Source: a virus. Taken from it: a stretch of DNA of 64,000 bases. The position numbers were made by a program, and so were the translations under genes. This document shows, in pieces, positions 8,426-64,000 of the stretch. The stretch covers positions 94,435 to 158,434 of IMG/VR virus record IMGVR_UViG_3300035703_000016, one strand, 5' to 3'. How positions within the stretch are numbered: the first letter of the stretch is position 1; each line of letters opens with the position of its first letter. The notes under the pieces are model-generated. The model was not told the origin of the DNA. It worked only from the letters and a program-made list of their open reading frames with translations, and made no database searches.

Positions 8426-11400
8426 TTAAGTATGATATACTTTAGAAAAACCAGAACTTTCTTTTGTAATTTCTATATGATTGTCAACTACATCTCTTAT
8501 AGTATCAATATGAGAAATCATTATAATAAACTTAAATTGAGTTTTTAAATATTCTAATAATACAGAAATATTACTCATGTTACTTTGATCAAGAGCTCCA
8601 AATCCTTCATCTATTGCTAAAAAATTAGGTCTTGGTAGAGAAGTTATATTTATTAAAGAAGTTCTAATTGCAAGAGTCAATATAAATTTTTCCATTCCAG
8701 AACTAAGTTCTATTGGCCATTTTCTAGATTCGTCATACTCAATATATGCATTTATATTTTTACCATCTGATTCAATTGCTATTTTAAAATCAACTATTTG
8801 AGACAACACATTATTTACATCTTCTTGTATTCTTGGAATAATAGATGTAATTATATCATATGGTAAACCATCTCTTCCAGTTGCTAAAAGATAATATTCA
8901 TAATACTTATATTTTTCTTCTATTGATTTTAAATTACTAATACTCTTTTTTGAATTTTCAATTTCAATTTCTAATAATTTAATATCTGTATTATATCTTA
9001 TTATAGAATTTGACACGATAGATAATTTATTTTTCGATTCCTCTATCTCTTTTTGACATTCTAAAACTTTATTTAAAATTTCTTGATTTGATTTTATTGC
9101 TGTTTCTTTCTTTTTATATTGATTTACTATATCTTCTATTGATTTTATAGATTCGGATGCCTGGTGTAGCTCCAGGGTTAGCCTATTGACGTTTGATTCT
9201 ATTTTAAGAATGTCATTCTTTTTTCTAGACAAATTATTTTGTAAAATATCATAATTGTCAACGGTTTTTTTATATATTTCAATATTTTCTCTTATAAGTT
9301 TTAAATTGTCAACTACTGTTTTTGCTTCAATTTTATCATTTTCTATAGAGTCTCTTGTTTGTATTGCGTCTTTAACAAAAATATTATCCATGCAAAATTC
9401 ACAATTTTCATCATACTTGAGATTTTCTAATTTTTTCATTTTCTCAAGTTTATTTTTTAAGTCTGCTTTTAGTTTTTCAACATATAAAGTCATTCTTTTT
9501 TCCTCTGCTTGTGTTTCTTGAAGTTGTTTTTTTAAATCTTCTATTTCTAAAAAATCATGTTTTAAAATCTCAGATTGAATAGTTTCAGAATCTTTTTTAA
9601 GCTCTATTATTATATTTTTATCATTATTCAGATCTATATTTATTTTTTCTATTTTAGAAATGTATAGTTCTTTTTTTTCTTGTAATCCAGATATGTCTAA
9701 TATTTTAGAATCTATTTGGAGTATTTTAGAATTTAATTTTATTAATTTATCATTCTGTTTTTCTATTTTTGTCTCAATTTCCTTTTTTTCTTTTTCTAAT
9801 TTTTTGTATTGAGAATGATAGACTTTTATTTTTTCTTCATTCTCTTGCAATTTAGTAAAATGATCAACTTTTTTATACTCTTTTATTAATACAGAATATT
9901 CTTTTATTTCTTCGCTGGCGGTTAAATATAAATCTTCATATACTTTTATATCTAGAAATTGAGCAAGTAAATCTTTTCTATCAGATTGACCCATATCAAT
10001 AAATCCAGTATTATTATTCTGCATCGACATACAAGTTAATATAAAATCCTCATAAGATCCTATTATTTCTCTTATTTTTGCATTTGTACTAAATCTATCT
10101 TCTCCGTTTAAAGAAACTTTTACATCGTCTTCTCCTATATAGTAAAATTCTACATCTTGTTTTACATTTTCTGATTTTGGTCTATAAGAAGCTTTTCTTT
10201 CAATTGTATAAGTTTTTCTATCTAATTCAAAATCTAATTTACAACTAAACTCTCTGGACTTATTATTCATTACAAGTCCAGCTTTTGAAGTTTTTGAGCA
10301 TTTATCAAAAAGACAATATACTAGAGCCTCTATACTAGAACTTTTTCCAGACGCATTTTGAGCAAAAATTCCATATATTCCTCCCATATTTGTAAAATCA
10401 ATTACGTTTCCCTCTCCATAACTAAACATATTAGAAAATTCAAGTCTTTTTGGACTCCATTGAATATTTCTAGTAACTTCTATTTTTGGAAGTTTATTGT
10501 TTATTGAAACATTTAATTCGCAAATTTTAGAAATGTCCTCTTTTTGTAAATTGTATTTACTTTTTAAATATTTTGCAAGTATATCATTCTGATAAGAAAT
10601 ATCTCTAACGTTTATAGCATTTGAATTAGAATGTGAAGTTATTCCAGAAACATCATTCATTATTTGATGAGTAATTTCTATTATATTTCTTGTTTTTCTA
10701 ATCTCAGACGCTATTTCTTTTATTTGAGAAGGAGGAGTATTTTTTGATCTTAATCTTAGATATAAATTTTTTGGAAGATTGTCTGGAAGATCTAAATAAA
10801 TTCCATTTTCTATATAGAGCGTGTAAAATGCTGTATCATTTTTAATTTGAATGTATTCTGCACTTCTTTTTTCTACATCCCACACAAATATTCCATGATC
10901 TAGACCCTCTGAATGACTTTGTTGAATCAATGAACCTGGATACCCAATTGTCTTTTTTTCATTTAAAAATTGAGTTTTATGAATATCTCCAAGAAGAGTC
11001 AAATCAAATCCATCAAAGTCATCTACACTTAAATTATAGCCAGATAAGAAAAACTCCCCCTCTGTAGATGAATTATTAACAGGACCATGAAAAAAACAAA
11101 TTTTGTATCCTGATTCTACTTGATTTGCTTTTGTATAAGTTTTTACGTCATCAAATACAGACCAATGAACAAAATTAATGTCTCCTATTTTGTAAACTCC
11201 ACTATCTTTTAAATAAATAATGTTAGTATCCCCCATTGCATTTATAATAGGAGTTAAACTATCCATTCTATGATTATTATTTAAATTTGCATCATGATTT
11301 CCTGGGATAATTATTGTAGGTAGTATAGATGACATCAACTTAAAAAAATGTTGAGTTTCTTCTACCAATTCTGGAGTAATATCTGTTTTAGAGTGCACAA

Positions 11401-11554
11401 TATCTCCTGTGATACAAATTATGCTATCATCTGTTTTAGTCGACTTTATATAATTTGCTACTCTATCAAAAACTCTTCTGTATTCTCCATGTCTTTTAAA
11501 GTTTCTAATATGAATATCAGATAAATGATATATTTTTTTAATAGCGCTTATCAT
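8426..11554 (-). CDS. Single-chain SbcD-SbcC (T4 gp47-gp46 type) nuclease/ATPase
   Basis: A 1042-aa fusion of what are two genes in T4 (47, 46) and bacteria (sbcD, sbcC). Residues 1-240 are the Mre11/SbcD phosphoesterase: SDIH (12-15), GD (50-51), GNHD (85-88), GDIH (189-192). Residues about 370-560 hold the Rad50/SbcC N-lobe with Walker A GIFAQNASGKSS (395-406). A long coiled coil with a zinc hook CEFC (718-721) follows. The C-lobe has the signature ELSSGMEK, Walker B LAIDEGFGALD (979-989) and ISH switch. It would process DNA ends for recombination-dependent replication. It overlaps the primase gene by 4 nt. Confidence 0.95.
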   Translation of the reverse strand: MISAIKKIYHLSDIHIRNFKRHGEYRRVFDRVANYIKSTKTDDSIICITGDIVHSKTDITPELVEETQHFFKLMSSILPTIIIPGNHDANLNNNHRMDSLTPIINAMGDTNIIYLKDSGVYKIGDINFVHWSVFDDVKTYTKANQVESGYKICFFHGPVNNSSTEGEFFLSGYNLSVDDFDGFDLTLLGDIHKTQFLNEKKTIGYPGSLIQQSHSEGLDHGIFVWDVEKRSAEYIQIKNDTAFYTLYIENGIYLDLPDNLPKNLYLRLRSKNTPPSQIKEIASEIRKTRNIIEITHQIMNDVSGITSHSNSNAINVRDISYQNDILAKYLKSKYNLQKEDISKICELNVSINNKLPKIEVTRNIQWSPKRLEFSNMFSYGEGNVIDFTNMGGIYGIFAQNASGKSSSIEALVYCLFDKCSKTSKAGLVMNNKSREFSCKLDFELDRKTYTIERKASYRPKSENVKQDVEFYYIGEDDVKVSLNGEDRFSTNAKIREIIGSYEDFILTCMSMQNNNTGFIDMGQSDRKDLLAQFLDIKVYEDLYLTASEEIKEYSVLIKEYKKVDHFTKLQENEEKIKVYHSQYKKLEKEKKEIETKIEKQNDKLIKLNSKILQIDSKILDISGLQEKKELYISKIEKINIDLNNDKNIIIELKKDSETIQSEILKHDFLEIEDLKKQLQETQAEEKRMTLYVEKLKADLKNKLEKMKKLENLKYDENCEFCMDNIFVKDAIQTRDSIENDKIEAKTVVDNLKLIRENIEIYKKTVDNYDILQNNLSRKKNDILKIESNVNRLTLELHQASESIKSIEDIVNQYKKKETAIKSNQEILNKVLECQKEIEESKNKLSIVSNSIIRYNTDIKLLEIEIENSKKSISNLKSIEEKYKYYEYYLLATGRDGLPYDIITSIIPRIQEDVNNVLSQIVDFKIAIESDGKNINAYIEYDESRKWPIELSSGMEKFILTLAIRTSLINITSLPRPNFLAIDEGFGALDQSNMSNISVLLEYLKTQFKFIIMISHIDTIRDVVDNHIEITKESSGFSKVYHT

Positions 11555-44134: not shown

Positions 44135-44155
44135 TTTTATATTTTTTAATGTTAG

Positions 44156-44227
44156 TAATCCTATCGAGAATCGAACTCGAGACTTTTCATGGAAAGTGAA
44201 ACGTGATAACCTCTTCACCATAGGATC
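44156..44227 (-). tRNA. tRNA-Glu(UUC)
   Basis: Acceptor GATCCTA/TAGGATT, D arm GTGA..TCAC, anticodon stem TTTCA/TGAAA with loop CTTTCCA, T arm CTCGAGTTCGATTCTCG-like. Discriminator A, no encoded CCA. Decodes GAA/GAG. Confidence 0.93.
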
Positions 44228-44237
44228 AATTAAATTT

Positions 44238-44423
44238 CTATGCTAAATAGTAGCCAGAATTTCCAGGTTCTAGAGCAGACGCTAGTTTAACTGCTTCACC
44301 ATGAATTACAGTTCCATTTTTAGAAAATCCTACCCATTGTTCAGATGGAGCAATAGATCTTAGAGTATTGCGTTGCATTTTTCCGTTTACTTCTACATTT
44401 TTGTAGATTACAATTTTTTTCAT
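44238..44423 (-). CDS. Unknown small protein
   Basis: About 61 aa (MKKIVIYKNVEVNGKMQRNT), beta-rich, ending LEPGNSGYYLA. An ATG two codons upstream is also possible. It sits between tRNA-Glu and tRNA-fMet. No family recognised. Confidence 0.65.
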   Translation of the reverse strand: MKKIVIYKNVEVNGKMQRNTLRSIAPSEQWVGFSKNGTVIHGEAVKLASALEPGNSGYYLA

Positions 44424-44460
44424 AAACATATTGTTTTTAAAAGATAAAAAAATAATTTAG

Positions 44461-44533
44461 AGGCGAGTGCAGGATTCGAACCTGCGACCACTAGGGTTAT
44501 GAGCCCTGTAAGCTACCACTGCTCTAACTCGCT
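44461..44533 (-). tRNA. Initiator tRNA-fMet(CAU)
   Basis: Anticodon stem-loop GGGCTCATAACCC has the three G-C pairs unique to initiator tRNA, and the acceptor has an unpaired first position (A1 opposite C72), the other initiator mark, although bacteria usually have C1-A72. D arm GAGC..GCTT, T arm GCAGGTTCGAATCCTGC. Discriminator U, no CCA. Confidence 0.85.
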
Positions 44534-44643
44534 ATTTAATATTTTAAGCATCTCCGCCCATTTTTTAAAAATATTTGATTGCTATATTATAAAAGTAATA
44601 AAATTTTTCTAACTTTTACAATTTTTCTATTAAGTAATAAATT

Positions 44644-44682
44644 AGAAGATAAGAGTTACTCTCCATTGAGCTAAACACCCTG
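44644..44682 (-). pseudogene. tRNA remnant (5' half)
   Basis: On the minus strand a D-arm stretch TTTAGCTCAATGGAGAGT with an acceptor-like GGGTG before it, but no T arm or 3' acceptor follows. Reads as the front half of a decayed tRNA. Confidence 0.45.
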
Positions 44683-44773
44683 AAAAGATCGTATCTGAAT
44701 TTAACCAGTAACATTCTCTTACCTTCATTTAAAGTGATACTTTTTTTCTAATCTTGACATATTTATTTTTTAT

Positions 44774-44781
44774 TATAAATA
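44774..44781 (-). promoter_or_regulatory. TATTTATA box
   Basis: Minus-strand GTATATTTATAATA just past the tmRNA 3' end; could drive tRNA-fMet and the genes after it. Confidence 0.3.
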
Positions 44782-44803
44782 TACTCAAGGTACAAAAAAA
44801 TGT

Positions 44804-45280
44804 CCGAGGAGTCATAGGGAATCGAACCCTAATCCAAACAATAATAATCAATAGACTCATTCACAAGCTTAGTTAATTTTTCTAAACTAACAAAATAATC
44901 TTTTCCTATTTTAACATCGTTAAAGATAACTGTGTCGAATTCACTTTTAATATGGTAGAAATTCTGAACTAGACCATTATACAATTCAGTCTGTATATAA
45001 CTAGTGAGTTTCTGTTCCTAGGTACCTTACTCAACAACCCGATGAACTAAGCCGCTACAGCGTACTCTCCGTCTACAAATGCTAGAGCATCTTCAACAGT
45101 CCAAGTAGAAAGTTCTACTTTTGCATTTATTTGTGAATACATTTGTTAGGTAAGCTATCGGAATCTCTAACACAGTGTAGTGCCATATTTCCATGTCAAG
45201 TCTTACTTTAAGCACTATATCCTCGTGCTTGCTTGCATCATCTCAAAGAACTTTATCGCTGTCAAAACCTGTGTGACCCC
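44804..45280 (-). ncRNA. ssrA: tmRNA (transfer-messenger RNA)
   Basis: Two tRNA-like ends: 5' GGGGTCA (45280-45274) pairs with 3' TGACTCC (44814-44808), all 7 bp, with a G3-U70 wobble, the alanine identity mark. After the 5' acceptor comes CAGGTTTTGACAG, like the tmRNA GGATTCGAC element. The 3' part has T arm TAGGGTTCGATTCCCTA. TGCAAGC near the 5' end pairs with GCTTGTG before the T arm (helix 2). The internal reading frame ends GTAGAC-GGA-GAG-TAC-GCT-GTA-GCG-GCT-TAG (stop 45049-45047), giving a tag ending GEYAVAA, like Bacteroidota tags (GE..YA.AA) and E. coli TACGCTTTAGCAGCTTAA. No CCA is encoded; discriminator U is unusual. At 477 nt it is longer than most. Confidence 0.9.
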
Positions 45281-45297
45281 TTATTGTTTTTATATAC

Positions 45298-45305
45298 TAT
45301 AAATA
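45298..45305 (-). promoter_or_regulatory. TATTTATA box before tmRNA
   Basis: Minus-strand GTATATTTATAGTATA, 17 nt before the tmRNA 5' end, with TTGAC just upstream. Candidate promoter. Confidence 0.45.
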
Positions 45306-45355
45306 TACGTCAATTTATTTGATTTAAAAAGTAATTCTTTAGAGTAACTATTTAA

Positions 45356-45814
45356 TTAAGACTTTACTAAATGATCGGCACAATACGTCATCATTGGACT
45401 GTCACCCTTATGTCTTACAGAATATCCAAGACCTTCTGCCCAACCAACTGCTGCACGTAAAACTTCATTTGATTTAAATCTAGGATCGGGGTTTAGATCA
45501 ATATCTATGTATTTTGTCTTTGGTAGACCTGCGTCTTTTATTTCATTTGCTAAATTAATGGATTCCCAAACTTCATTCATAAGTCTTGAAGAAATATCTC
45601 TATCTCTAATAGTCTTAAATTTATGAAAAAGAACATGAGCCCCCTTTCCTGGAGTATATAAAGCTAAAACTAGAGCATATAGAGTTTCTCTTCCTTTTAC
45701 TTGAGAATCACATCCGATAAGAATATCTACATCTTTATGACTCTCTAAATAAGTTTTAATATAATCTATTAATTGTACTTCTTTTTTTCCTATAAGAGTC
45801 TTAAATGTTTTCAT
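45356..45814 (-). CDS. YkuK/DUF458-like RNase H-fold protein
   Basis: 152 aa from the ATG at 45814. IDILIGCDSQVKGRETLYALVLALYTPGKGAHVLFHK-like core (residues 30-66) with Asp in GCDSQ, and TKYIDIDLNPDPRFKSNEVLRAAVGWAEGLGY, match the DUF458/YkuK family, which has an RNase H-like fold. Activity unknown; RNA-related work is plausible given the setting. The start codon overlaps the cREC stop (TGATG). Confidence 0.82.
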   Translation of the reverse strand: MKTFKTLIGKKEVQLIDYIKTYLESHKDVDILIGCDSQVKGRETLYALVLALYTPGKGAHVLFHKFKTIRDRDISSRLMNEVWESINLANEIKDAGLPKTKYIDIDLNPDPRFKSNEVLRAAVGWAEGLGYSVRHKGDSPMMTYCADHLVKS

Positions 45815-46239
45815 CAAATAGTGTGTTTAATTTGAACTCGAATACAATCTTGAGGTAATTTATTTTTCATCAAGAAGTTATTAATATAACCCATTATGTT
45901 TGCACTTCCAATAGGATTTGCGCTGTGAGTATAAATTCTTGGAAGTTTTATTCCAGTTTCTATACTATGATTAACAATCCACTTTGCGCAATCCATTCCA
46001 GTTTTTTCAGTGATATTAGAATAGTCTAAATGATAATTTGGAGAAACATTCCTAAAAAATTCTGCCATCGCTGAATCTCCTAAATCATGATCTAGTGAAA
46101 TAAGTTCTATATTATCTAAACCAATTTCAGTTATTTTAGAAACAAATTCATCATAATTTCTAACAACTATCCAATTAATATCTAAAATATCCTGTATTGG
46201 AGTTCTTACATCATCTAAATAAATCCAAACTTTTTTCAT
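45814..46239 (-). CDS. cREC (cyclic-phosphate receiver-like) domain protein
   Basis: A 141-aa protein. IYLDDVRTPIQ (residues 6-16), WIVVRNYDEFV (23-33), ISLDHDLGDS (48-57) and PRIYTHSANPIGSANIMGYINNF (100-122) match the cREC family, a receiver-fold domain proposed in RNA-repair contexts to act on cyclic phosphates. Conserved Asp and His residues are all present. It overlaps the YkuK-like gene by 1 nt. Confidence 0.82.
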   Translation of the reverse strand: MKKVWIYLDDVRTPIQDILDINWIVVRNYDEFVSKITEIGLDNIELISLDHDLGDSAMAEFFRNVSPNYHLDYSNITEKTGMDCAKWIVNHSIETGIKLPRIYTHSANPIGSANIMGYINNFLMKNKLPQDCIRVQIKHTI

Positions 46240-46254
46240 ATTATTTTTTTTAAG

Positions 46255-46340
46255 TGCTCCCGATGGGAATCGAACCCATACGAACTTTACAGTTCATTGG
46301 TTTTTAAGACCAACCTGGTTACCAGTTACAGCACGAGAGC
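46255..46340 (-). tRNA. tRNA-Leu(UAA)
   Basis: Acceptor GCTCTCG/CGGGAGC, anticodon stem TTGGT/ACCAA with loop CTTAAAA, long variable arm GAACTGTAAAGTTC. Discriminator A. Decodes UUA, likely a heavily used codon here. Confidence 0.93.
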
Positions 46341-46355
46341 ATCATTATTTTCTAG

Positions 46356-46384
46356 ATTGTAAATATACAAAATCTTTTTGACAA
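46356..46384 (-). promoter_or_regulatory. 29-nt element
   Basis: TTGTCAA-N10-TATATTTACAAT on the minus strand, 15 nt before tRNA-Leu(UAA). Confidence 0.6.
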
Positions 46385-46420
46385 TTTAAAGACTTTTCTC
46401 GTATATTTGTTTTTATTATT

Positions 46421-48148
46421 TTAATCCTCTCTTAGAACTATTCTTTCTAAAAATTCATTAGGAAAATTATCTGAAGATCTTGTAATTAAATCCGATAAGC
46501 AGCCATCTAAAAAATAAGTTACGGCCCAGTCATCTTCTGATCTAACTGATCTACCTACTCCTTGAAGAATAGACGTACAAGTTTTCCAATTATACCAGCC
46601 TTTAGAATATTTCATTTTTTCAGAAACATATTTATCTCCTAAATTTGGATATGGCACTTTTAAAAAAATCTGAAGTCTGCTTTTATCATCCTTTAAATCA
46701 AGACCTTCTAATAAAGATGGACCTATTAAAATGTTTCCTGGAGTATCAATGAATTTTTTTAAACTATCCATTTTTTCTTCAGTTCCTTTATAAATATGGA
46801 TTCTTTTTTGTTTTTGTTTAGATAACTTATAAAGTAATTTATTTCCTAATTCATAAGAGCCAGAATGAATAACTCCAGATTCAGTTGGGTGAGCATCCAT
46901 AATATCAGACACAGTTTTAATTAACCAAGTCATATTTTTGTCAATATCCTTTTTACTCATTCTACGAGAAGGATAAAAATAAATAGGAGACTTTTTATAA
47001 TTAAAAGTTGATTCCATTTTTCTATAAAAAGATTTTTTAGCGCCAATACTAGATTCAAATTCAGACTTAGCGCCCATAGTAGCAGTCATAAGAAGCTTAA
47101 ATCCAAATCTATCTAAAAAATGTTTCTTCATTAGATATTTTTCATCAAGACAATTAAATGTTACTTCAGTATCATTAAGAGCTTTTATCATAAAATGAAG
47201 ACCTGATTTTTCAACTATTTCTATATAATCTTCAACTTTGCAAAGAACATCTTTTACATAGTCAAAGTTCTTAAATACCGATTTCCATTCTCCTGGAACA
47301 TTATCTCCTCCAAATTTGTCTTTTGCTGTTTTTTGAACTTCATCTCTATATGATTGAGCTCTACCTAAAATCATCATTGTGCGCTTTAGGTGCTTCAAGA
47401 GGACGCTCTTTTCTTCTTCACGAACAATATCATTAACTACGTCTCTTAACTGATCTACTGGTATTAGAGCGTTAGGAAATCCTATGTCTGCTAAGCCTAA
47501 AGAGAGTTTAAGAACATTATCCACAGTTTTAGGACTAATCTTTGGACTAAAATGACTTTGAACTATGTCTACTACTTTATGAGCTTCATCACAAATTACA
47601 AAATCTCTTTGTTCAAACGCAGATCCATTTTGGGACTTATCTTCTACATAATTTCTTTGAATAAGGGCATAAGAATAAGTTAATAATGCGACGTCTGAAT
47701 CTATAGCCCTTCTTCTAGACTGAAAATATCCACAGTTTCCATAGCAATTTAGTTTTTCAGACTCTTGATAATTAAGTCCTTTATTTTTACATTCTCCTAT
47801 TGAAAATTTTTCATTATTTAAAGAGCAAGTGTAGTTATCAACTCCTTTAATTTGACCCCAAGAAATAAGCCCGTGTTTAGAAAAATCTCTTGAGTATTGA
47901 TCATGAAGACTGATATCTGAAGTTAAAATGTATCCTTTTTTTCCACGACTTGCCATAAAAGCAGAAAATAGAATTGCAATTAGAGATTTACCTGTTCCAG
48001 TTGGAGCATCTAATAAGTACACTCCATTTTTATCTAAATTATAACTCTTTATAATGTCCTCTACTGTCTCTCTTTGTCCTTTTCTATATTTAAAATCCGG
48101 AAATCTTGATTTTACAAATCCGTCGAATTCTCTATATGATAATGTCAT
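46421..48148 (-). CDS. DinG/XPD-like helicase
   Basis: A 575-aa superfamily 2 helicase. Walker A DAPTGTGKS (45-53); CDEAHKV for the DEAH box (about 187-193); four cysteines in YTCSLNN...GECKNK...LNCYGNCGYF that can hold an Fe-S cluster, as in XPD/DinG; GVGRSVRSEDDW (about 532-543) is motif VI. It would unwind DNA or R-loops, 5' to 3' in this family. An in-phage role in repair or replication is likely. Confidence 0.9.
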   Translation of the reverse strand: MTLSYREFDGFVKSRFPDFKYRKGQRETVEDIIKSYNLDKNGVYLLDAPTGTGKSLIAILFSAFMASRGKKGYILTSDISLHDQYSRDFSKHGLISWGQIKGVDNYTCSLNNEKFSIGECKNKGLNYQESEKLNCYGNCGYFQSRRRAIDSDVALLTYSYALIQRNYVEDKSQNGSAFEQRDFVICDEAHKVVDIVQSHFSPKISPKTVDNVLKLSLGLADIGFPNALIPVDQLRDVVNDIVREEEKSVLLKHLKRTMMILGRAQSYRDEVQKTAKDKFGGDNVPGEWKSVFKNFDYVKDVLCKVEDYIEIVEKSGLHFMIKALNDTEVTFNCLDEKYLMKKHFLDRFGFKLLMTATMGAKSEFESSIGAKKSFYRKMESTFNYKKSPIYFYPSRRMSKKDIDKNMTWLIKTVSDIMDAHPTESGVIHSGSYELGNKLLYKLSKQKQKRIHIYKGTEEKMDSLKKFIDTPGNILIGPSLLEGLDLKDDKSRLQIFLKVPYPNLGDKYVSEKMKYSKGWYNWKTCTSILQGVGRSVRSEDDWAVTYFLDGCLSDLITRSSDNFPNEFLERIVLRED

Positions 48149-48150
48149 TT

Positions 48151-48270
48151 TTAATTTTTATGTCCGCATGATTCGCAATAATCACCTCTTCTAGCATCAT
48201 ACTCTAATCCGCAATTTTTACACCTCATCCAGATTTCGTGGTTAAATATTTTTATTAATCTCTTTATCAT
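48151..48270 (-). CDS. Small zinc-ribbon protein
   Basis: A 39-aa ORF: MIKRLIKIFNHEIW then RCKNCG...DYCESCGHK, a CxxC...CxxC ribbon. It overlaps the kinase gene by 4 nt (ATGA) and ends 2 nt before the helicase ATG. Short but consistent with a real gene. Confidence 0.65.
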   Translation of the reverse strand: MIKRLIKIFNHEIWMRCKNCGLEYDARRGDYCESCGHKN

Positions 48271-48662
48271 ATGAGTTTTATTTCAAATCGATCTTTCATT
48301 TTTTGGATTGTCTCATTTGGAACTCCATGTATACTTTCGTTGCCATGTCTATTTTCAACTATAAGAGAAACTACACGATATCCGAATTCTTCTGCCATTT
48401 GTAAATATGGTTGCATTTCTTTCTCAGTTGTAGAAGTGTTTGATATAACTACTTGAGGTTTTCCATTTCCTAATAAATGTCTTACTATTCTTTTACACCA
48501 ATCGTGTGCATCTTTTAATCTAGCAGGATTAAACCTATATTCATCATTAAGATAAAAAAATTGATCAGCTTCACATATAACAGCTTCAGGCCACATCAAA
48601 CTTGCAAATGTACTTTTACCTGAGCCAGGTAACCCTCTTAGTAAAATTAAAACTTTTTCCAT
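48267..48662 (-). CDS. Polynucleotide kinase-like P-loop protein
   Basis: A 131-aa AAA_33-type kinase. Walker A LLRGLPGSGKSTFA (residues 7-20), a substrate Asp in CEADQFFY, VISNTSTTEKEMQPYLQMAEEFGYRV, then HGVPNETIQKMKDRF, the lid pattern shared by PNK-like and NEDD4BP2L-like kinases. It is the natural 5'-end kinase for the RNA ligase. A 3'-phosphatase domain, present in T4 Pnk, is absent. Confidence 0.8.
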   Translation of the reverse strand: MEKVLILLRGLPGSGKSTFASLMWPEAVICEADQFFYLNDEYRFNPARLKDAHDWCKRIVRHLLGNGKPQVVISNTSTTEKEMQPYLQMAEEFGYRVVSLIVENRHGNESIHGVPNETIQKMKDRFEIKLI

Positions 48663-48698
48663 AACATAAATTTAAATAATATATTTCAAATATCAAAG

Positions 48699-49361
48699 CT
48701 AATCTGCGTGGTGATCATGCTCCATTAAAGATTTATTTGGTCTGTCTTTTAGTAGTGTTACTACCTCACTCAGAGAATATGGAATTAAGTTATTTCCATC
48801 CACACCCACATCAAGCATTTTACCTGGACCAAGTTTTCTCATTTTATCTAAATGAACATGTCCATGAAGATGCATCCACCCCTTTCTTATGTTGTTGTGA
48901 GACGCTATAGGAAAGTGACATAAAACAAAGTTATGCTTAGTTAATCCACCCAATATCTGATGAGTTGCGTTTTTTGTTATTTCTAACTCCAAGTAATGAT
49001 GTACAGACGAAAATAACGATTGATAGTTGTCTGTGTTCTTCTGGATATGCTCATCATGATTTCCATATACAAATATAATATTCTTGCAAACAATGCGATT
49101 GCGGAACTCTGGGATATGCTGATGACCTCCAAAAGAGAAGTCTCCAAGGTGAACTAAAATATCCTTTTGTCCAACTCTTCTGTTTATATTATTAATTAAT
49201 GCGGAATTCATTTCTTCGAGATTTTTAAAATCCCTAGTTCTTAAATGACCTTTTGAAGGATCGTCTAGCCATTCGCTAACACCTCTGCAGATGTTCTTGT
49301 GGTTTATGTGCGTATCTGAAGTAAAGAATATATCTTGACCTTGATTTAATGTAATCTTCAT
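48699..49361 (-). CDS. Metallophosphoesterase
   Basis: A 220-aa phosphoesterase: FTSDTHINHKNI (13-24), VHLGDFSFGG (70-79), FVYGNHDEHI (97-106), LCHFPIAS and LHGHVHLDK near residues 150-180. This is the HNICR/DTH type seen in many T4-like phages. Substrate unknown; a second such enzyme lies at 42592..43296. Confidence 0.9.
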   Translation of the reverse strand: MKITLNQGQDIFFTSDTHINHKNICRGVSEWLDDPSKGHLRTRDFKNLEEMNSALINNINRRVGQKDILVHLGDFSFGGHQHIPEFRNRIVCKNIIFVYGNHDEHIQKNTDNYQSLFSSVHHYLELEITKNATHQILGGLTKHNFVLCHFPIASHNNIRKGWMHLHGHVHLDKMRKLGPGKMLDVGVDGNNLIPYSLSEVVTLLKDRPNKSLMEHDHHAD

Positions 49362-49391
49362 TTTTTAAATTTAGTATTTTTTAAAAATCTT

Positions 49392-49622
49392 CTAATTAGT
49401 CCACTGAATTACTTCATAATCATATTTAGTCAATGCTATTAGAGGAGCACTAGTCAACCAAGGAGACTCACTTTTAGATCCTTTTTGGTATTTTGGATTA
49501 GTAATGTATACTACTTGAGTTTCTGGATCATAGTCTACATTGGATACTTCAATAGGAATATTTGGTAGATCAAATCCGCGTTTCTCATTTCCGTCTTTTA
49601 CGATTATCAATTTTGGCTTCAT
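49392..49622 (-). CDS. Unknown small protein
   Basis: A 76-aa strand-rich protein (PKLIIVKDGNEKRGFDLPN; then LTKYDYEVIQWTN). No family recognised. Between the phosphoesterase and tRNA-Arg(UCU). Confidence 0.65.
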   Translation of the reverse strand: MKPKLIIVKDGNEKRGFDLPNIPIEVSNVDYDPETQVVYITNPKYQKGSKSESPWLTSAPLIALTKYDYEVIQWTN

Positions 49623-49642
49623 AACTTTTATTTTTATAGATG

Positions 49643-49713
49643 TAGTCCCAAAGGGATTCGAACCCCTACGTTCTCCTTAGAAGAGAGACAGTCTTCCATT
49701 AACTTATAGGACT
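49643..49713 (-). tRNA. tRNA-Arg(UCU)
   Basis: Acceptor AGTCCTA/TGGGACT, anticodon stem TCTCT/GGAGA with loop CTTCTAA, T arm GTAGGGGTTCGAATCCCTT. Discriminator A. Reads AGA. Confidence 0.92.
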
Positions 49714-49790
49714 ATGGTCCGGGTCTATCCCCGACTGTCATATCAACTGTTCTATGCATATTTAGGTCGTTATATATCTACACCTTATCG
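49714..49790. other. Inter-tRNA spacer, unexplained hairpin
   Basis: 77 nt between two tRNAs with no tRNA I can fold. It has a CGGG-TCTATC-CCCG hairpin near 49720. No gene. Confidence 0.3.
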
Positions 49791-49862
49791 TGCACCTTAA
49801 GGGGATTGAACCCATGACCTCCACATTATGAGTGTGTTGCTCTACCGCTGAGCTAAAGGTGC
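49791..49862 (-). tRNA. tRNA-Met(CAU), elongator or Ile2
   Basis: Acceptor GCACCTT/AAGGTGC, D arm GCTC..GAGC, anticodon loop CTCATAA, T arm ATGGGTTCAATCCCCT. Discriminator A. CAU also serves AUA decoding if the C is modified; sequence alone cannot tell. Confidence 0.9.
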
Positions 49863-49871
49863 AAAAAAATA

Positions 49872-50165
49872 CTAATTATTAACTTTATTTTTATATGTAT
49901 ATGTTGCGTCAAATGTTAACCATGACATATCTTTAACAATAAATCTTCTAATATAATAAAAAGGATTAAACCATTTAGTTATGTTATTAAATTTGTTTAT
50001 TGTACTAACAATCTTAACGCATTTAATATAATCTTCAAGTGTCAATAAATTACTATTACATTTTGGGCATTTTGAATCTATATATTTTTCATAATCTTCC
50101 CAAGCAACTGAATCATCTCTGTATGAGCAATGATCACATTTTAATCCACTAAAATTAACTTCCAT
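49872..50165 (-). CDS. Zinc-finger protein
   Basis: 97 aa from the ATG at 50165; a longer GTG-started frame would begin inside tRNA-Asp and is rejected. It has CDHCSYRDD and CPKCNSN, a CxxC...CxxC finger. The end is basic and aromatic (KWFNPFYYIRRFIVKDMSW). Function unknown. Confidence 0.7.
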   Translation of the reverse strand: MEVNFSGLKCDHCSYRDDSVAWEDYEKYIDSKCPKCNSNLLTLEDYIKCVKIVSTINKFNNITKWFNPFYYIRRFIVKDMSWLTFDATYTYKNKVNN

Positions 50166-50187
50166 AACTTTTTTATTTTTTAAAAAG

Positions 50188-50262
50188 CGGTCTATCACGG
50201 ATTCGAACCGAGGATCTCCTCATAGACAGTGAGGAGGGACGTCCAGACTCCCCTAATAGACC
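50188..50262 (-). tRNA. tRNA-Asp(GUC)
   Basis: Acceptor GGTCTAT/ATAGACC, anticodon stem CCTCA/TGAGG with loop CTGTCTA, T arm CTCGGTTCGAATCCGTG. Discriminator G, as expected for Asp. Confidence 0.92.
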
Positions 50263-50281
50263 AATTATATTTTTTTTAAAG

Positions 50282-50363
50282 TGCTCCAGGAGGGACTCGA
50301 ACCCTCAATCCTTACGGAGTCTGTTTCTAAGACAGAAGTGTATACCAGTTCCACCACCGGAGC
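50282..50363 (-). tRNA. tRNA-Leu(UAG)
   Basis: Acceptor GCTCCGG/CTGGAGC, anticodon stem TCTGT/ACAGA with loop CTTAGAA, long variable arm. Discriminator A. Confidence 0.92.
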
Positions 50364-50371
50364 ATATATCA

Positions 50372-50578
50372 CTAATAATCACCTAAATCAACATGAATAG
50401 CCTTTGACTCAAGAGAAGTTAATAGAGATATATTTAATTCTTCATCGTATAGACCACCAGTATCTAAAATCTCTCTTATCATAATTTCAGCATCATTTAT
50501 ATTTCCTGCGCTAACTATTATCGTGCTGCCAACATAGTGACCTGGACCTCGATGAAGGTAAAAGTTTAAGTTTTTCAT
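50372..50578 (-). CDS. Unknown small protein
   Basis: A 68-aa protein (FYLHRGPGHYVGSTIIVSAG; NDAEIMIREILDTGGL), alpha/beta. No family recognised. It fits exactly between tRNA-Leu(UAG) and tRNA-Tyr. Confidence 0.7.
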   Translation of the reverse strand: MKNLNFYLHRGPGHYVGSTIIVSAGNINDAEIMIREILDTGGLYDEELNISLLTSLESKAIHVDLGDY

Positions 50579-50581
50579 AAG

Positions 50582-50665
50582 TGCCGCACATAGGATTCGA
50601 ACCTATTCAGTCATAAGACAACGATTTTACAGACCGTCCTAGCTCTCCAACTCTAGCGGTGTGGC
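50582..50665 (-). tRNA. tRNA-Tyr(GUA)
   Basis: Acceptor GCCACAC/GTGCGGC with one A-C mismatch at pair 4, anticodon stem ACGGT/ATCGT with loop CTGTAAA, long variable arm as in bacterial Tyr, T arm ATAGGTTCGAATCCTAT. Discriminator A. Confidence 0.9.
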
Positions 50666-50694
50666 ATTGTAAATATACTAAAAGATCTTGACAA
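50666..50694 (-). promoter_or_regulatory. 29-nt element
   Basis: TTGTCAA-N10-TATATTTACAAT directly abutting the tRNA-Tyr 5' end. Confidence 0.6.
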
Positions 50695-50716
50695 CATTCA
50701 GTCTATCTTTTAAGTG

Positions 50717-50789
50717 CGGGTATGGAAGGATTCGAACCTACGACCTGAGAGTTAACAGCTCCCTGCTCTACCACTGGAGCTACATACCC
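50717..50789 (-). tRNA. tRNA-Asn(GUU)
   Basis: Acceptor GGGTATG/CATACCC, D arm GCTC..GAGC, anticodon loop CTGTTAA, T arm GTAGGTTCGAATCCTTC. Discriminator G. Confidence 0.93.
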
Positions 50790-50796
50790 ATAATTT

Positions 50797-50871
50797 TGGT
50801 AGGACCACCAGGACTCGAACCTGAATTAATTGAGTATCAGTCAACTGTGCTAACCATTCTACTATAGTCCT
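50797..50871 (-). tRNA. tRNA-Ile(GAU), CCA encoded
   Basis: Acceptor AGGACTA/TGGTCCT, anticodon stem GTTGA/TCAAT with loop CTGATAC, T arm CAGGTTCGAGTCCTG. The gene reads ACCA at the 3' end (50800-50797), the only tRNA here where I see the CCA. Confidence 0.92.
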
Positions 50872-50878
50872 AAAAGCG

Positions 50879-50963
50879 CGGAAGATGGAGGTAACGATCC
50901 CCCTTGGGTTTTATCCCAGCCATAGCTTAGCAAGCCAGCCGATTACCTTTCTCGCAATCTTCC
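50879..50963 (-). tRNA. tRNA-Ser(GCU)
   Basis: Acceptor GGAAGAT/ATCTTCC, anticodon loop TTGCTAA, long variable arm. T loop is ATCGTTA, lacking the usual T54. Discriminator G. Confidence 0.88.
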
Positions 50964-50968
50964 AAAAT

Positions 50969-51013
50969 GTAGGGGTTCTCTAACCGGACTTCTCTGCTGG
51001 TACCCTACTCCGG
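50969..51013. repeat. Interleaved inverted repeats in spacer
   Basis: GTAGGG (50969-50974) pairs with CCCTAC (51003-51008), and CCGGA (50984-50988) with TCCGG (51009-51013). The pairs interleave, so either a pseudoknot or two alternative hairpins. Confidence 0.5.
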
Positions 51014-51018
51014 ATTTG

Positions 51019-51089
51019 TGTGACAGTGGGTTTCGATCCCTTTCTAAGATATTCACAACATCTCGTGCTTCCATTACACTACAGTCACC
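51019..51089 (-). tRNA. tRNA-His(GUG)
   Basis: G-1 present before GTGACTG, which pairs with CTGTCAC (one T-T mismatch). Anticodon loop TTGTGAA. T stem is poor and the T loop is ATCGAAA. Possibly weakened, but the His marks are clear. Confidence 0.82.
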
Positions 51090-51096
51090 ATGTTAA

Positions 51097-51168
51097 AAAG
51101 TAACTCACTGGAAACGTTATTACTGAAGTTATCAGCCTATGCGTTAAGCACTCCTATTATGTTACTTT
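51097..51168 (-). pseudogene. tRNA-sized fold-back, likely decayed tRNA
   Basis: 8-bp inverted ends AAAGTAAC (51097-51104) and GTTACTTT (51161-51168) enclose exactly 72 nt, the size of a tRNA, but no T arm (TTCRA) is recognisable on either strand. Confidence 0.35.
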
Positions 51169-51185
51169 CTCGTACTCCAAGTTGG

Positions 51186-51273
51186 CGGTAGAGGTAGGAT
51201 TCGAACCCACAACCCGAGTAAACGAGACCGGTTTTCAAGACCGGAGCGGTCAGCCATTACGCTTTACTCTACC
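51186..51273 (-). tRNA. tRNA-Ser(UGA)
   Basis: Acceptor GGTAGAG/CTCTACC, anticodon stem CCGGT/ACCGG with loop CTTGAAA, long variable arm CTCGTTTACTCGGG, T arm GTGGGTTCGAATCCTAC. Discriminator G. Confidence 0.93.
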
Positions 51274-51390
51274 AAAATATCTTTACTGTCTTCTTTACAG
51301 AGAAAAATGCATTTGTTGCCATGTGTAATCTTGGGTGAGCCTATTCAGCATACATCTCTTTCATTGAATAACGCTACTGTAATAGCTATG

Positions 51391-51464
51391 ATTGCTTTCT
51401 TCCTACGACTTTACGGGTGATTCACCAAGGAGTTTCATTATCACTATTCAACTAATCAAGCAAT
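51391..51464 (-). pseudogene. tRNA-sized fold-back, likely decayed tRNA
   Basis: 7-bp inverted ends ATTGCTT (51391-51397) and AAGCAAT (51458-51464) enclose 74 nt with no canonical T arm. The rest of the 51274-51470 gap holds no gene I can see. Confidence 0.35.
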
Positions 51465-51470
51465 AAATTG

Positions 51471-51542
51471 TAGTCGTTAATGGAATCGAACCACTATCTT
51501 TGGGATCAAAACCCAACGTGTTAGCCTTTATACTAAACGACT
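51471..51542 (-). tRNA. tRNA-Gln(UUG)
   Basis: Acceptor AGTCGTT/AACGACT, anticodon stem TTGGG/CCCAA with loop TTTTGAT, T arm AGTGGTTCGATTCCATT. Discriminator A. Confidence 0.92.
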
Positions 51543-51549
51543 ATATTAG

Positions 51550-51622
51550 AGCGAGTGATGGGATTCAAACCCACAACCCCCGACTTGGAAGGACGGTGCG
51601 CTATCAGTTGCGCTACACTCGC
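51550..51622 (-). tRNA. tRNA-Gly(UCC)
   Basis: Acceptor GCGAGTG/CACTCGC, anticodon loop CTTCCAA, T arm TGTGGGTTTGAATCCCATC. Discriminator U, usual for Gly. Confidence 0.92.
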
Positions 51623-51823
51623 ATAGTTAATAATTAATTTTATCGAATTCGTTGGACACATTTGCTAAATTATTATTACCCTCATATGCTCTTGTCGGCA
51701 CACCTAGAATTTGCATCTGGAATCTGGGCTTGTCATGCCTCAGCGGGTTAATCTTATCTAATAATTCTTATTCGCACACAAAATATCGTTTCTGTTGACG
51801 TTTCGTTAGTTAATTTTTTTGTG
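51623..51823. other. Spacer without a recognised gene
   Basis: A 200-nt gap between tRNA-Gly and tRNA-Val. I see no ORF, tRNA or strong hairpin in it. Confidence 0.3.
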
Positions 51824-51898
51824 TAGTCACTGTCAGATTCGAACTGACGACCTATTGCTTGTAAGGCAATTGCTCTGAACCAACTGAGCTAAGCGACT
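51824..51898 (-). tRNA. tRNA-Val(UAC)
   Basis: Acceptor AGTCGCT/AGTGACT, D arm GCTC..GAGC, anticodon stem ATTGC/GCAAT with loop CTTACAA, T arm GTCAGTTCGAATCTGAC. Discriminator A. Confidence 0.93.
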
Positions 51899-51958
51899 GA
51901 TTTGCGTTTACCTTTGCAAAGGTTATAGAGGCACGCATACGCCTTTATCTATATTATG

Positions 51959-52032
51959 TGGAATCGATGAGATTCGAACTCATCACATAGATCTTGCAAA
52001 GATCCATCGCCAGCCTAGGAACATGCGACCCC
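51959..52032 (-). tRNA. tRNA-Ala(UGC)
   Basis: Acceptor GGGGTCG/CGATTCC includes G3-U70, the alanine identity pair; anticodon stem GGATC/GATCT with loop TTTGCAA; T arm ATGAGTTCGAATCTCAT. The D stem is weak (CAT/ATG). Discriminator A. Confidence 0.88.
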
Positions 52033-52057
52033 TTGCGCCCATCTTTTCACTGCTATG

Positions 52058-52093
52058 GCGGAGACTAGTTTTTCAACTACTGATGGACCCCGC
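52058..52093 (-). repeat. Two-tier hairpin with GAAA tetraloop
   Basis: On the minus strand GCGGGG pairs with CTCCGC (one G-U), enclosing TAGTT-GAAA-AACTA. It lies in the 94-nt spacer between tRNA-Ala and tRNA-Pro and is not a tRNA. Confidence 0.45.
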
Positions 52094-52126
52094 TGACCTT
52101 TATATAGAAAATGCCAGTAAAACTTG

Positions 52127-52201
52127 TATAAGTGGAGAGATTCGAACTCTCGATAACTTGGTCCCAAACCAAGAGGGTATAGCCTTCTGCCCGACACCTA
52201 T
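52127..52201 (-). tRNA. tRNA-Pro(UGG)
   Basis: Acceptor ATAGGTG/CACTTAT (one G-U), anticodon stem CTTGG/CCAAG with loop TTTGGGA, T arm GAGAGTTCGAATCTCTC. Discriminator A. Confidence 0.92.
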
Positions 52202-52279
52202 ATAATTCGTTTGTTTATTAAAAGTAATACTATTTTTTGATCTTTTTCAATTGATCTTAAAAGTGTTACCTTTTTTTTG

Positions 52280-52350
52280 AAGGCGATACAAGATTTGAAC
52301 TTGTGTAGTGGGATTTGCAATCCCAAGCCTCGCCTCTCGGCCAATCGCCC
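52280..52350 (-). tRNA. tRNA-Cys(GCA)
   Basis: Acceptor GGGCGAT/ATCGCCT, anticodon stem TGGGA/TCCCA with loop TTGCAAA, T arm ACAAGTTCAAATCTTGT. Discriminator U, the Cys mark. Confidence 0.93.
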
Positions 52351-52354
52351 AGTG

Positions 52355-52417
52355 TGGTAGATATTGAATCACACGATTATTGGTTATTCTCTAATCTTCA
52401 ATATACGCTATCTACCA
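52355..52417 (-). pseudogene. Fold-back of 63 nt, possible decayed tRNA
   Basis: 9-bp inverted ends TGGTAGATA (52355-52363) and TATCTACCA (52409-52417), with an inner TTGA/TCAA pair. The minus strand has GATTCAAT near its 3' end, T-loop-like. Ten nt short of a tRNA. Confidence 0.35.
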
Positions 52418-52442
52418 AAACCTATGCGTATAAAGAACCTCG

Positions 52443-52515
52443 TAGCTCCAAAGGGATTCGAACCCCTATCTGATGATTCGTAGTCACCCGTTCTTATCCA
52501 TTGAACTATGGAACT
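52443..52515 (-). tRNA. tRNA-Arg(ACG)
   Basis: Acceptor AGTTCCA/TGGAGCT, anticodon stem GGTGA/TCATC with loop CTACGAA, T arm TAGGGGTTCGAATCCCTT. Discriminator A. A34 would need editing to inosine by a host enzyme. Confidence 0.92.
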
Positions 52516-52525
52516 ATATTTTTTG

Positions 52526-52599
52526 CACCGAGAACCGGAGTCGAACCGATAATTGCCTGCTTACAAGGCAGGTGCTGTAACCAATTGAGCCATCCCGGT
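52526..52599 (-). tRNA. tRNA-Thr(UGU)
   Basis: Acceptor ACCGGGA/TCTCGGT, D arm GCTC..., anticodon stem CCTGC/GCAGG with loop CTTGTAA, T arm ATCGGTTCGACTCCGGT. Discriminator G, unusual for Thr. Confidence 0.91.
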
Positions 52600-52744
52600 A
52601 AATTACAACTTTTAAATTATCCCCATAGTTGTCAACTGTGCTGGCATACGATCCAGAGGTTCAGTGGCGGGTGGTGTAGCTATACACCTTAACCAGACTT
52701 TCCTATCTTCGATTCATAGTGAACGTTCACCAGAGGACTTTTTG

Positions 52745-52815
52745 CACAATCAGCAGGATTCGAACCTACATCAACGGTTTTGGAGACCGCTATTCTACCA
52801 TTGAACTATGAATGT
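52745..52815 (-). tRNA. tRNA-Trp(CCA)
   Basis: Acceptor ACATTCA/TGATTGT with one T-T mismatch, anticodon stem GCGGT/ACCGT with loop CTCCAAA, T arm GTAGGTTCGAATCCTGC. Discriminator G, the Trp mark. Confidence 0.9.
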
Positions 52816-56111: not shown

Positions 56112-56618
56112 TTATTTTTTATCAAAGATCACAACAACCACATCGCAATCTCTTAACTCATTGATTATCATAGTCTTAACTCTACTCCAATCTCCACCAG
56201 CTAATCCGCATCCTATTTGAGGTAGTCCAATTGTTTTGCCTTTAAATTGTATATTCATTTTTCTTAAACATAAAGCTAAAGCTTCATAATCAAGAGGAGG
56301 ACCATCTCTAAACCCATAATGATTTTGAGTATAGGCATTTACAACTATAACCTCTGGATCGTTAGCGTTATTTTTAAAATCTAAAGTAGACCAAGTTGAA
56401 TTTTTTCCTAAAACTATAGTTTCATAGTCTATATTTCCTAGTTTATGAGCTGTAGGACCCCAAGTTTCCATCTCAAATTTATCACAACCAAACGCCTTAG
56501 CCATAAGAGGCGCTATACCGGCTCCCATATTAGATTGACAATTGCAACCATGAGCAATTACATTAAATTCTCCTTTTTTTGCTAGATTAATAAGATCCCC
56601 TTTAATTTCTTTATACAT
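56112..56618 (-). CDS. Macro domain protein (ADP-ribose-1''-phosphate type)
   Basis: A 168-aa protein that is a single macro domain. VIAHGCNCQSNMGAGIAPLMAKAFG (residues 20-44) holds the ADP-ribose loop and VVNAYTQNHYGF (93-104) and IGLPQIGCGLAGGDW (129-143) complete the site, as in the Poa1/Appr-1''-phosphatase group. It would remove the phosphate from ADP-ribose-1''-phosphate, a by-product of tRNA 2'-phosphate transfer, or de-modify targets. It fits with the RNA ligase and cREC genes. Confidence 0.9.
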   Translation of the reverse strand: MYKEIKGDLINLAKKGEFNVIAHGCNCQSNMGAGIAPLMAKAFGCDKFEMETWGPTAHKLGNIDYETIVLGKNSTWSTLDFKNNANDPEVIVVNAYTQNHYGFRDGPPLDYEALALCLRKMNIQFKGKTIGLPQIGCGLAGGDWSRVKTMIINELRDCDVVVVIFDKK

Positions 56619-59928: not shown

Positions 59929-59957
59929 TTTGTAAATCTAATGAAAATTATTGACAA
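59929..59957 (-). promoter_or_regulatory. 29-nt element
   Basis: TTGTCAA-N10-TAGATTTACAAA, 38 nt before the ATG at 59890. Confidence 0.6.
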
Positions 59958-60004
59958 TAAAAAGTTTTTTTCAGATATTCTATTTTCAACGATATCATAT
60001 ATGT

Positions 60005-60427
60005 TTAATTGATGTTACTACAATCACTACAATCATTGCAATAACTGCAATAATTACAAGAACTGCAAGAAATGCAATTATGACAATAACTGCAATAATT
60101 ACAAGAACTACAATCACTACAATAACTACAATCACTACAAGAACTACAAGAACTACAATCACTACAATCACTACAATCATTGCAATAACGACAAGAACTA
60201 CAATAACGACAAGAACTACAATAACTGCAATCATTGCAATCATTGCAATAACGGCAATTATGGCAATTATGGCAATAACTGCAGTTACTGCAATTCCAAC
60301 ATCCTTTATTAGTAGAATTGTCATCTACATAATTAGGATTATTTTTTGCAAAATTAGGCGATACGCCGTTTACTAATTTGTTTGTTCTGTTTATAAACTC
60401 TGAATAGGAATCAAAAATCTGTGTCAT
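60005..60427 (-). CDS. Cys-X-X repeat protein 1
   Basis: A 140-aa protein. After a 40-residue ordinary N-terminus (MTQIFDSYSEFINRTNKLVNG) nearly every third residue is Cys (CxxCxxC...) for about 33 turns, with Ser, Asn, Asp and Tyr between. DNA repeats in 9-nt steps. It could bind many metal ions, or be a stacked solenoid like pentapeptide proteins. It has its own 29-nt promoter element 24 nt upstream, so it is expressed on purpose. 124 bp of it are identical to 63874-63997. Confidence 0.75.
   Translation of the reverse strand: MTQIFDSYSEFINRTNKLVNGVSPNFAKNNPNYVDDNSTNKGCWNCSNCSYCHNCHNCRYCNDCNDCSYCSSCRYCSSCRYCNDCSDCSDCSSCSSCSDCSYCSDCSSCNYCSYCHNCISCSSCNYCSYCNDCSDCSNIN
60017..60140. repeat. 124-bp identical repeat, copy 1
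   Basis: Identical base for base to 63874-63997 (offset 3857). Both copies encode Cys-X-X turns in the same frame on the minus strand. Confidence 0.9.
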
Positions 60428-60451: not shown

Positions 60452-60480
60452 ACTGTAAATCTACTAAAAATTATTGACAA
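60452..60480 (-). promoter_or_regulatory. 29-nt element
   Basis: TTGTCAA-N10-TAGATTTACAGT, 24 nt before the Cys-repeat protein 1 ATG. Confidence 0.6.
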
Positions 60481-60600
60481 TAAAAATTTTTTTCAGATAT
60501 TCTTTTTCTTCATTTATAGAACTAGTTATTTCTGGTTTAATCAACAAATATATCAAATTAACTACTAATAAAGAATAATTAGTTTCGAGTAAAAATAAAA

Positions 60601-60625
60601 AAAGAGGAGCACTTAACTCCTCTTT
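60601..60625 (-). terminator. Terminator hairpin
   Basis: 9-bp stem AAAGAGGAG (60601-60609) with CTCCTCTTT (60617-60625), T-rich on the minus-strand 3' side. It ends the 60652..61365 transcript. Confidence 0.7.
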
Positions 60626-63498: not shown

Positions 63499-64000
63499 TT
63501 AAATTGTTTGTTTTTCAAGTTCGGCACATCTTACAATATCCTTCATGCTTTCTTCGTTGTTTACATAAAACATTGTAGGGGATACTTTAATGTGACTACT
63601 TGCATTATATATAGTCATTGCAGCAAAACAAGTATCTGTTTTACTTTCCAATTCCTTACCAGCTTCCCCAGCCAATACGACTACCCAACCAGCACGGCAA
63701 TGTGTAGTATCGCAAGTATGCCATGTAGACATATCTAGAGCACAATCAACCGATGTTACTTGTAATATTGATTGATGTATATTACTAATAGTTGGGGGTA
63801 CAAAGTTCTCATTGTTATTTATTGTTAAATTTAAAGAACTGCAAGAACTACAAGAACTACAAGAACTACAAGAACTACAATCACTACAATCATTGCAATA
63901 ACTGCAATAATTACAAGAACTGCAAGAAATGCAATTATGACAATAACTGCAATAATTACAAGAACTACAATCACTACAATAACTACAATCACTACAATCA
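63499..64000 (-). CDS. Cys-X-X repeat protein 2, C-terminal part (runs off window)
   Basis: The frame ending at 63499 stays open to the window edge, so the gene extends beyond 64000. At the edge it encodes Cys-X-X turns (CSDCSYCSDCSSCNYC...) down to about 63838, then a linker (LNLTINNNENFVPPTISN), then the C-terminal domain MSTWHTCDTTHCRAGWVVVLAGEAGKELE...CFAAMTIYNASSHIKVSPTMF. That domain often follows pentapeptide-type repeats in other phages; here Cys-X-X turns take their place. Starting the gene at the internal ATG at 63732 would miss the repeats. Confidence 0.7.
   Translation of the reverse strand, partial: DCSDCSYCSDCSSCNYCSYCHNCISCSSCNYCSYCNDCSDCSSCSSCSSCSSCSSLNLTINNNENFVPPTISNIHQSILQVTSVDCALDMSTWHTCDTTHCRAGWVVVLAGEAGKELESKTDTCFAAMTIYNASSHIKVSPTMFYVNNEESMKDIVRCAELEKQTI
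63874..63997. repeat. 124-bp identical repeat, copy 2
   Basis: Perfect copy of 60017-60140; identity stops at 63998 (t against g) and at 63873 (a against t). Confidence 0.9.

Follow-up and report, generated by a model that had tools for sequence, protein, structure and literature searches.

A widespread phage protein family with cysteine at every third residue, a candidate triplet solenoid that shares its C-terminal domain with pentapeptide-repeat proteins

The pentapeptide repeat forms a right-handed quadrilateral β-solenoid, and this fold is also that of the known gyrase-binding DNA mimics. A second point of reference is the antifreeze protein of Tenebrio molitor (1EZG), a Cys-rich β-helix. 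Two phage clusters matched by the proteins described here, PHROG 15341 and PHROG 31265, are automatic groupings for which no assigned function, structure, or description was found. Homologues have been deposited as 'hypothetical' or as 'insect antifreeze protein', and no description of the family was found in open papers, the literature covered here. The repeat regions published for Campylobacter phages were considered as members and rejected, being mostly extragenic arrays of about 75 bp (PMC4546147, PMC2853527). We report a widespread and apparently undescribed family, in which cysteine is followed by two further residues (X1 and X2) in long tandem runs of CXX triplets.

The window, that is, the whole 64-kb stretch of DNA analyzed in this study, covers the final 64 kb of a virus record 158,434 bp long. 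An earlier note on this DNA, made from the sequence alone, had described a protein with about 33 CXX steps. The unbroken tract with cysteine at every third residue was borne out, with an exact count of 32 (Table 1), and is followed by Ile-Asn-stop. Among the six frames of the window, runs of at least five CXX steps occurred twice, namely this tract and one of 18 triplets (63837-63998), which continues past the window end, where the contig also ends. The periods reported by TRF were 9, 18, 27, and 45 nt.

Table 1. Coordinates of the features of the CXX locus in the window
Feature	Position	Strand	Remarks
CXX-repeat protein gene	60005..60427	-	140 aa, ATG start, stop codon included; has homologues
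N-terminal domain, presumed solenoid cap, residues 1-42	60302..60427	-	alignment, pN/pS, AlphaFold2 block
(CXX)32 tract, residues 43-138	60014..60301	-	9-nt units TGY-NNT-NNT; PHROG 15341 match
Promoter-like element TTTATTGTCAATAATTTTTAGTAGATTTACA, 31 nt	60454..60484	-	26 nt upstream of the CXX start codon
Terminator-like hairpin and T-run, ends the upstream gene	60601..60625	-	
Paralogue 3' part: 18 CXX triplets and helical C-terminal domain (WHTC.TTHCRAGW)	63499..63999	-	PHROG 31265, E=1.4e-26

As had been pointed out in that note, the strand opposite the gene is open as well (TTG ORF, 59951-60376). The Cys codons of the tract comprise 18 TGT and 14 TGC, which are synonymous on the minus strand and would read as Thr or Ala on the other. 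The N-terminal domain shows the conserved pattern F..R..K..NGV..FA..N.TNKG in the alignment, shares 62.8% identity with the unrelated Vibrio phage 1.238 over residues 2-44, and gave pN/pS values of about 0.17-0.36 in five of six pairs of paralogues, the sixth pair having too few changes. Because the alternation of TGT and TGC is silent there and pN/pS of the N-domain is low, the minus strand is favored as coding. Purifying selection on the N-domain, the TGT/TGC mixture, the promoter-like element, and the homologues agree with the earlier opinion that a chance antisense frame is unlikely; the minus-strand ORF is a genuine coding gene and an antisense artefact is ruled out.

The promoter element of 29 nt that had been assigned to this gene holds in substance, since a recurring element was found upstream, although its length is 31 nt (Table 1). 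A second copy with one mismatch (59931-59961, minus strand; 0 expected in shuffles) precedes the next gene, and variants lie upstream of two of the three other CXX copies and of several neighboring minus-strand genes. AAACAACAAA often stands between such an element and the start codon. The shared element looks like a phage gene-class promoter, in a phage that is AT-rich and possibly infects Bacteroidota. The terminator-like hairpin marks the end of the upstream gene, so that the CXX gene probably forms a transcription unit of its own. Neighbors of the CXX genes in this phage include a DUF932 gene and a RecA/DnaB-like ATPase gene. The phage resembles T4-like myoviruses and carries baseplate-wedge and SbcCD-type genes; SbcD-like and SbcC-like subunits appear to be fused in a 1042-aa ORF (8426-11554, minus strand; PHROG 100 followed by PHROG 77). 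A macro-domain-like protein (56112-56618, minus strand), whose PF01661 score falls slightly short of the Pfam threshold, is encoded a few kb away from the CXX gene. The phage also carries a translation cluster (44155-52815, minus strand) with 20 tRNAs, including tRNA-Cys (52279-52350), and a predicted tmRNA (44806-45280) with the tag AKVELSTWTVEDALAFVDGEYAVAA.

In the coordinates of the record, CXX matches were located at 154442-154861 (the window gene), 5207-5599, 2268-2615, 1-339, and 158305-158430. The last two are halves of one gene split across the contig ends, so that the N-terminal part of the paralogue in Table 1 sits at the opposite end (record 1-339). The ends share an exact 46-nt overlap within the CXX tract (record 1-46 and 158389-158434; window 63955-64000), and the record is classed as linear despite this overlap. 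The end overlap probably arose where assembly of a circular or permuted genome broke off in a repeat that the paralogues have in common; because the copies share this repeat, circularity is likely rather than certain. With a circular record, four CXX copies would lie within roughly 10 kb. Only the broken copy carries the C-terminal domain in this phage, and the window copy lacks it.

Database searches returned dozens of homologues, which excludes the lack of homologues that the earlier note had listed as part of a refuting outcome. We identified 43 related loci in a scan of IMG/VR and 34 in bacterial genomes searched with the C-terminal motif. Hypothetical proteins of Vibrio phage 1.238 (gene 68), Flavobacterium phage FL-1, and Campylobacter phages CP21, CC_R7, and WX1 resemble the window protein in the N-domain and/or the CXX tract, whereas the Campylobacter copies differ from it in having a second type of N-cap and degenerate triplets. 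The window protein matches PHROG 15341 with E=2.2e-11 over residues 45-138. It had no match in Pfam or NCBIfam at E<=10, in line with the earlier statement that it is neither a standard metallothionein nor a pentapeptide protein, and no model of these two collections covers the CXX family or gave a usable match.

The architecture of the family is modular, with an interchangeable N-cap before a (CXX)n tract that spans about 8-60 triplets; a C-terminal domain frequently follows. The first type of N-cap reads '..NGVS..FA...TNKGCWNC' and the second 'W..DENGN..SVEYFGS.EAA..AL.SL..C'; a third, short type occurs at L041, L044, and L048. The C-terminal domain has the motif WH.C.TTHCRAGW (PHROG 31265), and one locus, L030, has another C-terminal part matching PHROG 20532 and 7964. 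Within the tracts, X1 is mostly Ser, Arg, Asn, or His, and X2 is Asp, Gly, Arg, Tyr, Asn, or Ser. The FL-1 homologue (L088:3950-4817) is annotated as a split gene and has its CXX tract and C-terminal domain in different frames; the frame difference may be a sequencing error or a genuine frameshift. Phage CP21 (L090:3277-4714) has two adjacent CXX genes, CP21_165 and CP21_166, flanked by genes for portal and DNA ligase; their products have the second N-cap type and lack the C-terminal domain. The TTHCRAGW domain was also found behind an LRR-like stretch (L067:2-427) and behind an Ala/Trp-rich repeat (L082:7542-8234), which suggests that it has been joined to several repeat types. No partner gene common to the whole family was found among the neighbors of the loci. 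The largest clusters shared among the neighbors consisted of the C-terminal domain or of alternative frames across the repeat, and the remaining ones were confined to YqaJ, RecT, and helicase-type genes. In L038, YqaJ follows closely downstream, as RecT does in L068; such adjacency was seen in some relatives with either repeat type but not in the phage of the window.

The same C-terminal domain stands behind (CXX)n in 34 rows and behind pentapeptide repeats in about 15, for seven of which PF00805 was confirmed (E 2e-20 to 5e-43). This arrangement indicates that (CXX)n appears to replace a known β-solenoid, although a common C-terminal domain does not prove a common fold of the two repeats. In a tree of the domain, six pentapeptide rows fell together with all 34 CXX rows in a group with 99% SH-aLRT, and nine pentapeptide rows fell outside; the tree is based on 104 columns with many open forks and leaves the number and direction of the swaps unsettled. 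In the pentapeptide sisters, the Ala/Leu core codons and the third bases are near-fixed, and the outward positions i-1, i+1, and i+2 are variable.

A similar pattern was observed inside the CXX tracts, for which 40 tracts with 1062 units were analyzed. Heterozygosity was 0.46 and 0.40 at the first and second bases of the X2 codon, and 0.055, 0.077, and 0.025 at the three third positions; the invariance of Cys is partly built in, as the tracts were found by their cysteines, and the third-base comparison is unaffected by this. Position 8 was more heterozygous than position 9 (the second and third bases of X2) in 37 of 38 tracts (p=3e-10), and X2 is encoded by an NRY codon (D, G, R, Y, N, S, or H) in 93% of cases, where a change of the third base is silent. 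Tracts rather than units were counted in this test, because neighboring units of an array are not independent of each other and a small number of ancestral unit types may account for much of the diversity; X2 diversity could in part go back to recombination that shuffled a few old types of unit. The background codons differ between tracts (TGC-TCC, TGC-TCG, TGT-TCC, or TGC-AGC), which indicates that each lineage homogenized its array while the diversity of X2 was kept. The third base of the Cys codons is less uniform in the copies of the phage studied here. Homologues encode the same residues with entirely different codons (AGY or TCN for serine; TGT or TGC for cysteine).

Two contigs that are near-identical over 4566 bp differ by three bases, all in the X2 codons of two adjacent triplets. 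In another contig pair, the differences are a 27-nt deletion and a single base; the location of differences within the tract was checked base by base in the 4566-bp pair only. In degenerate members, the 37 in-phase residues other than Cys were S (20), I (6), L (6), G (3), T (1), and F (1), none of them charged; the register is kept, and X1 and X2 are mostly E, K, N, or D. Uncharged in-phase replacements argue that the Cys position looks inward. Hypervariation by a DGR was considered and rejected, given the lack of a reverse transcriptase (no PF00078 match in the phage's own record, which is possibly incomplete) and the variable Cys third bases of its own copies.

Structure prediction, which the earlier note had named as a check, gave moderate to good models of the N- and C-terminal domains and did not resolve the repeat. 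AlphaFold2 gave pLDDT of about 71-87 for the N-domain block and, for a helical C-terminal domain, about 82-97 over most of its length, whereas most of the CXX tract stayed below 50 with two alignments. Foldseek searches of the PDB and of viral models recovered a single phage homologue and gave no significant match to a PDB fold, and the model of the C-terminal domain had no match in the PDB. Autocorrelation of the repeats gave no clear or consistent lag for the coil length; a lag of 5 in the phage's own genome probably reflects 45-nt duplications. We therefore infer the solenoid from sequence. The best PDB sequence match was 1EZG (profile E=0.0015), with C, S, C, and A aligned at every third residue. 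An antifreeze role is disfavored, because the TxT ice-binding array is missing; Thr is absent from the window tract and rare at X1 across the family.

Taken together, we propose, with a probability of roughly 0.5, that the gene product is an intracellular phage protein made of a cap and a solenoid of three-residue repeats, in which each triplet would place Cys in the core and X1 and X2 on the surface. The CXX tract would then be the triplet counterpart of the pentapeptide-repeat β-solenoid in front of the common helical C-terminal domain, and during infection its surface may form a modular interface that contacts a partner, either protein or nucleic acid. Recombination between tandem repeats could quickly re-deal the length and pattern of the tract, while selection would preserve the core residue and maintain diversity at the outer one. 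The swap with pentapeptide repeats, the surface diversity, and the likely missing signal peptide (none was seen by eye in the alignment) fit such an intracellular binding scaffold. RecT and YqaJ neighbors in some relatives hint at a tie to a recombination or DNA-metabolism program, or to a block of host nuclease or gyrase. A bolder form, to which we give somewhat less than even credence, is a new class of triplet solenoid with a continuous Cys-lined core, thiol or metal-filled, and an outward residue that selection keeps diverse and recombination re-deals, forming a fast-evolving, modular recognition rod exchanged with pentapeptide rods before the same effector domain.

The earlier note had suggested a Cys-lined solenoid that binds many metal ions or disulfides; the solenoid remains the best structural reading of the sequence, but metals or disulfides as its purpose do not agree with the Cys-free sisters or with the S, I, L, G, T, and F replacements. 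As a metallothionein-like sink or store, the 32 cysteines would hold many Zn, Cu, or Fe-S ions. This role is unlikely, even though CXXC spacing is typical of metal sites, thiols are free in the reducing cytosol, and Cys is the most conserved part of the tracts, which were themselves selected by Cys. It leaves the retained X2 diversity unexplained, no metal-binding family was matched in Pfam or NCBIfam, Cys-free pentapeptide repeats precede the same C-terminal domain in sister proteins, and degenerate members exchange the in-phase Cys for I, L, S, or G.

Two further roles both appear improbable. In the first, an exported or virion-associated protein would be stapled by a ladder of disulfides like a secreted β-helix, as the inward every-third-residue pattern of the disulfide-stapled insect antifreeze protein would allow; however, the N-terminus in the alignment does not, by inspection, resemble a signal peptide, the phage's own genes lie among DUF932 and RecA/DnaB-like genes, and they have no structural-gene neighbor, although the Campylobacter phage copies adjoin portal genes. 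In the second, the protein would mimic DNA, as Qnr/MfpA or lambda Gam do, and occupy gyrase or a recombination nuclease, which is consistent with the exchange with pentapeptide repeats and with the RecT/YqaJ neighbors of some relatives, but the net charge of the tracts, about -17 to +4 and often near neutral, is not strongly acidic and speaks against a general DNA mimic.

A RiPP-like precursor, with a leader-like N-domain and a Cys/Ser core cross-linked through thioethers by a peptide-modifying enzyme, is very improbable. The conserved N-terminal part before a Cys/Ser-rich repeat, the weak resemblance, below threshold, that one member bears to the His-Xaa-Ser repeat family, and the many radical SAM genes of Campylobacter phages (PMC2853527) speak for it, while many members have a large conserved C-terminal domain, no conserved enzyme neighbor was found, and no radical SAM gene (PF04055) was found in the phage's own record, which is possibly incomplete. 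The view that a microsatellite-like 9-nt array is open by chance and has no protein function, for which the strong tandem repeat and the open opposite strand could be cited, is practically negligible given the conserved N-domain under low pN/pS, the different codons for the same residues, the C-domain kept in relatives, and the promoter element.

The triplet solenoid with inward Cys and a re-assorting surface, if true, would have one of the smallest repeat units known for solenoids, and a core made up entirely of Cys would be unusual. What the surface binds, and whether that partner drives the diversity, becomes testable through the swap with pentapeptide repeats and the pattern within tracts. 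These results also correct the labels 'insect antifreeze protein' and 'hypothetical protein' in Vibrio, Flavobacterium, and Campylobacter phages and prophage-like loci, and they point to an uncharacterized helical domain (WH.C.TTHCRAGW) worth solving.

The CXX proteins would belong among the short-repeat solenoid proteins. Metallothioneins are likewise short and very Cys-rich, but they lack the strict three-residue period, the separate N-domain, and the solenoid-swapping relatives of the CXX family, which matched no metallothionein family. The Tenebrio antifreeze protein, of the type to which the label 'insect antifreeze protein' of a Vibrio phage homologue refers, shares a core residue at every third position; in contrast, the CXX proteins have no TxT array, their X positions are diverse, and they are likely intracellular, and the match score is weak and driven by Cys. 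The pentapeptide-repeat proteins (PF00805; QnrB, MfpA) differ in their A(D/N)LXX unit from the three-residue unit with a Cys core, and the window protein has no PF00805 match, yet both combine fixed core codons with variable outward codons, and their outward pairs draw on the same small set of residues (S/R then G/D).
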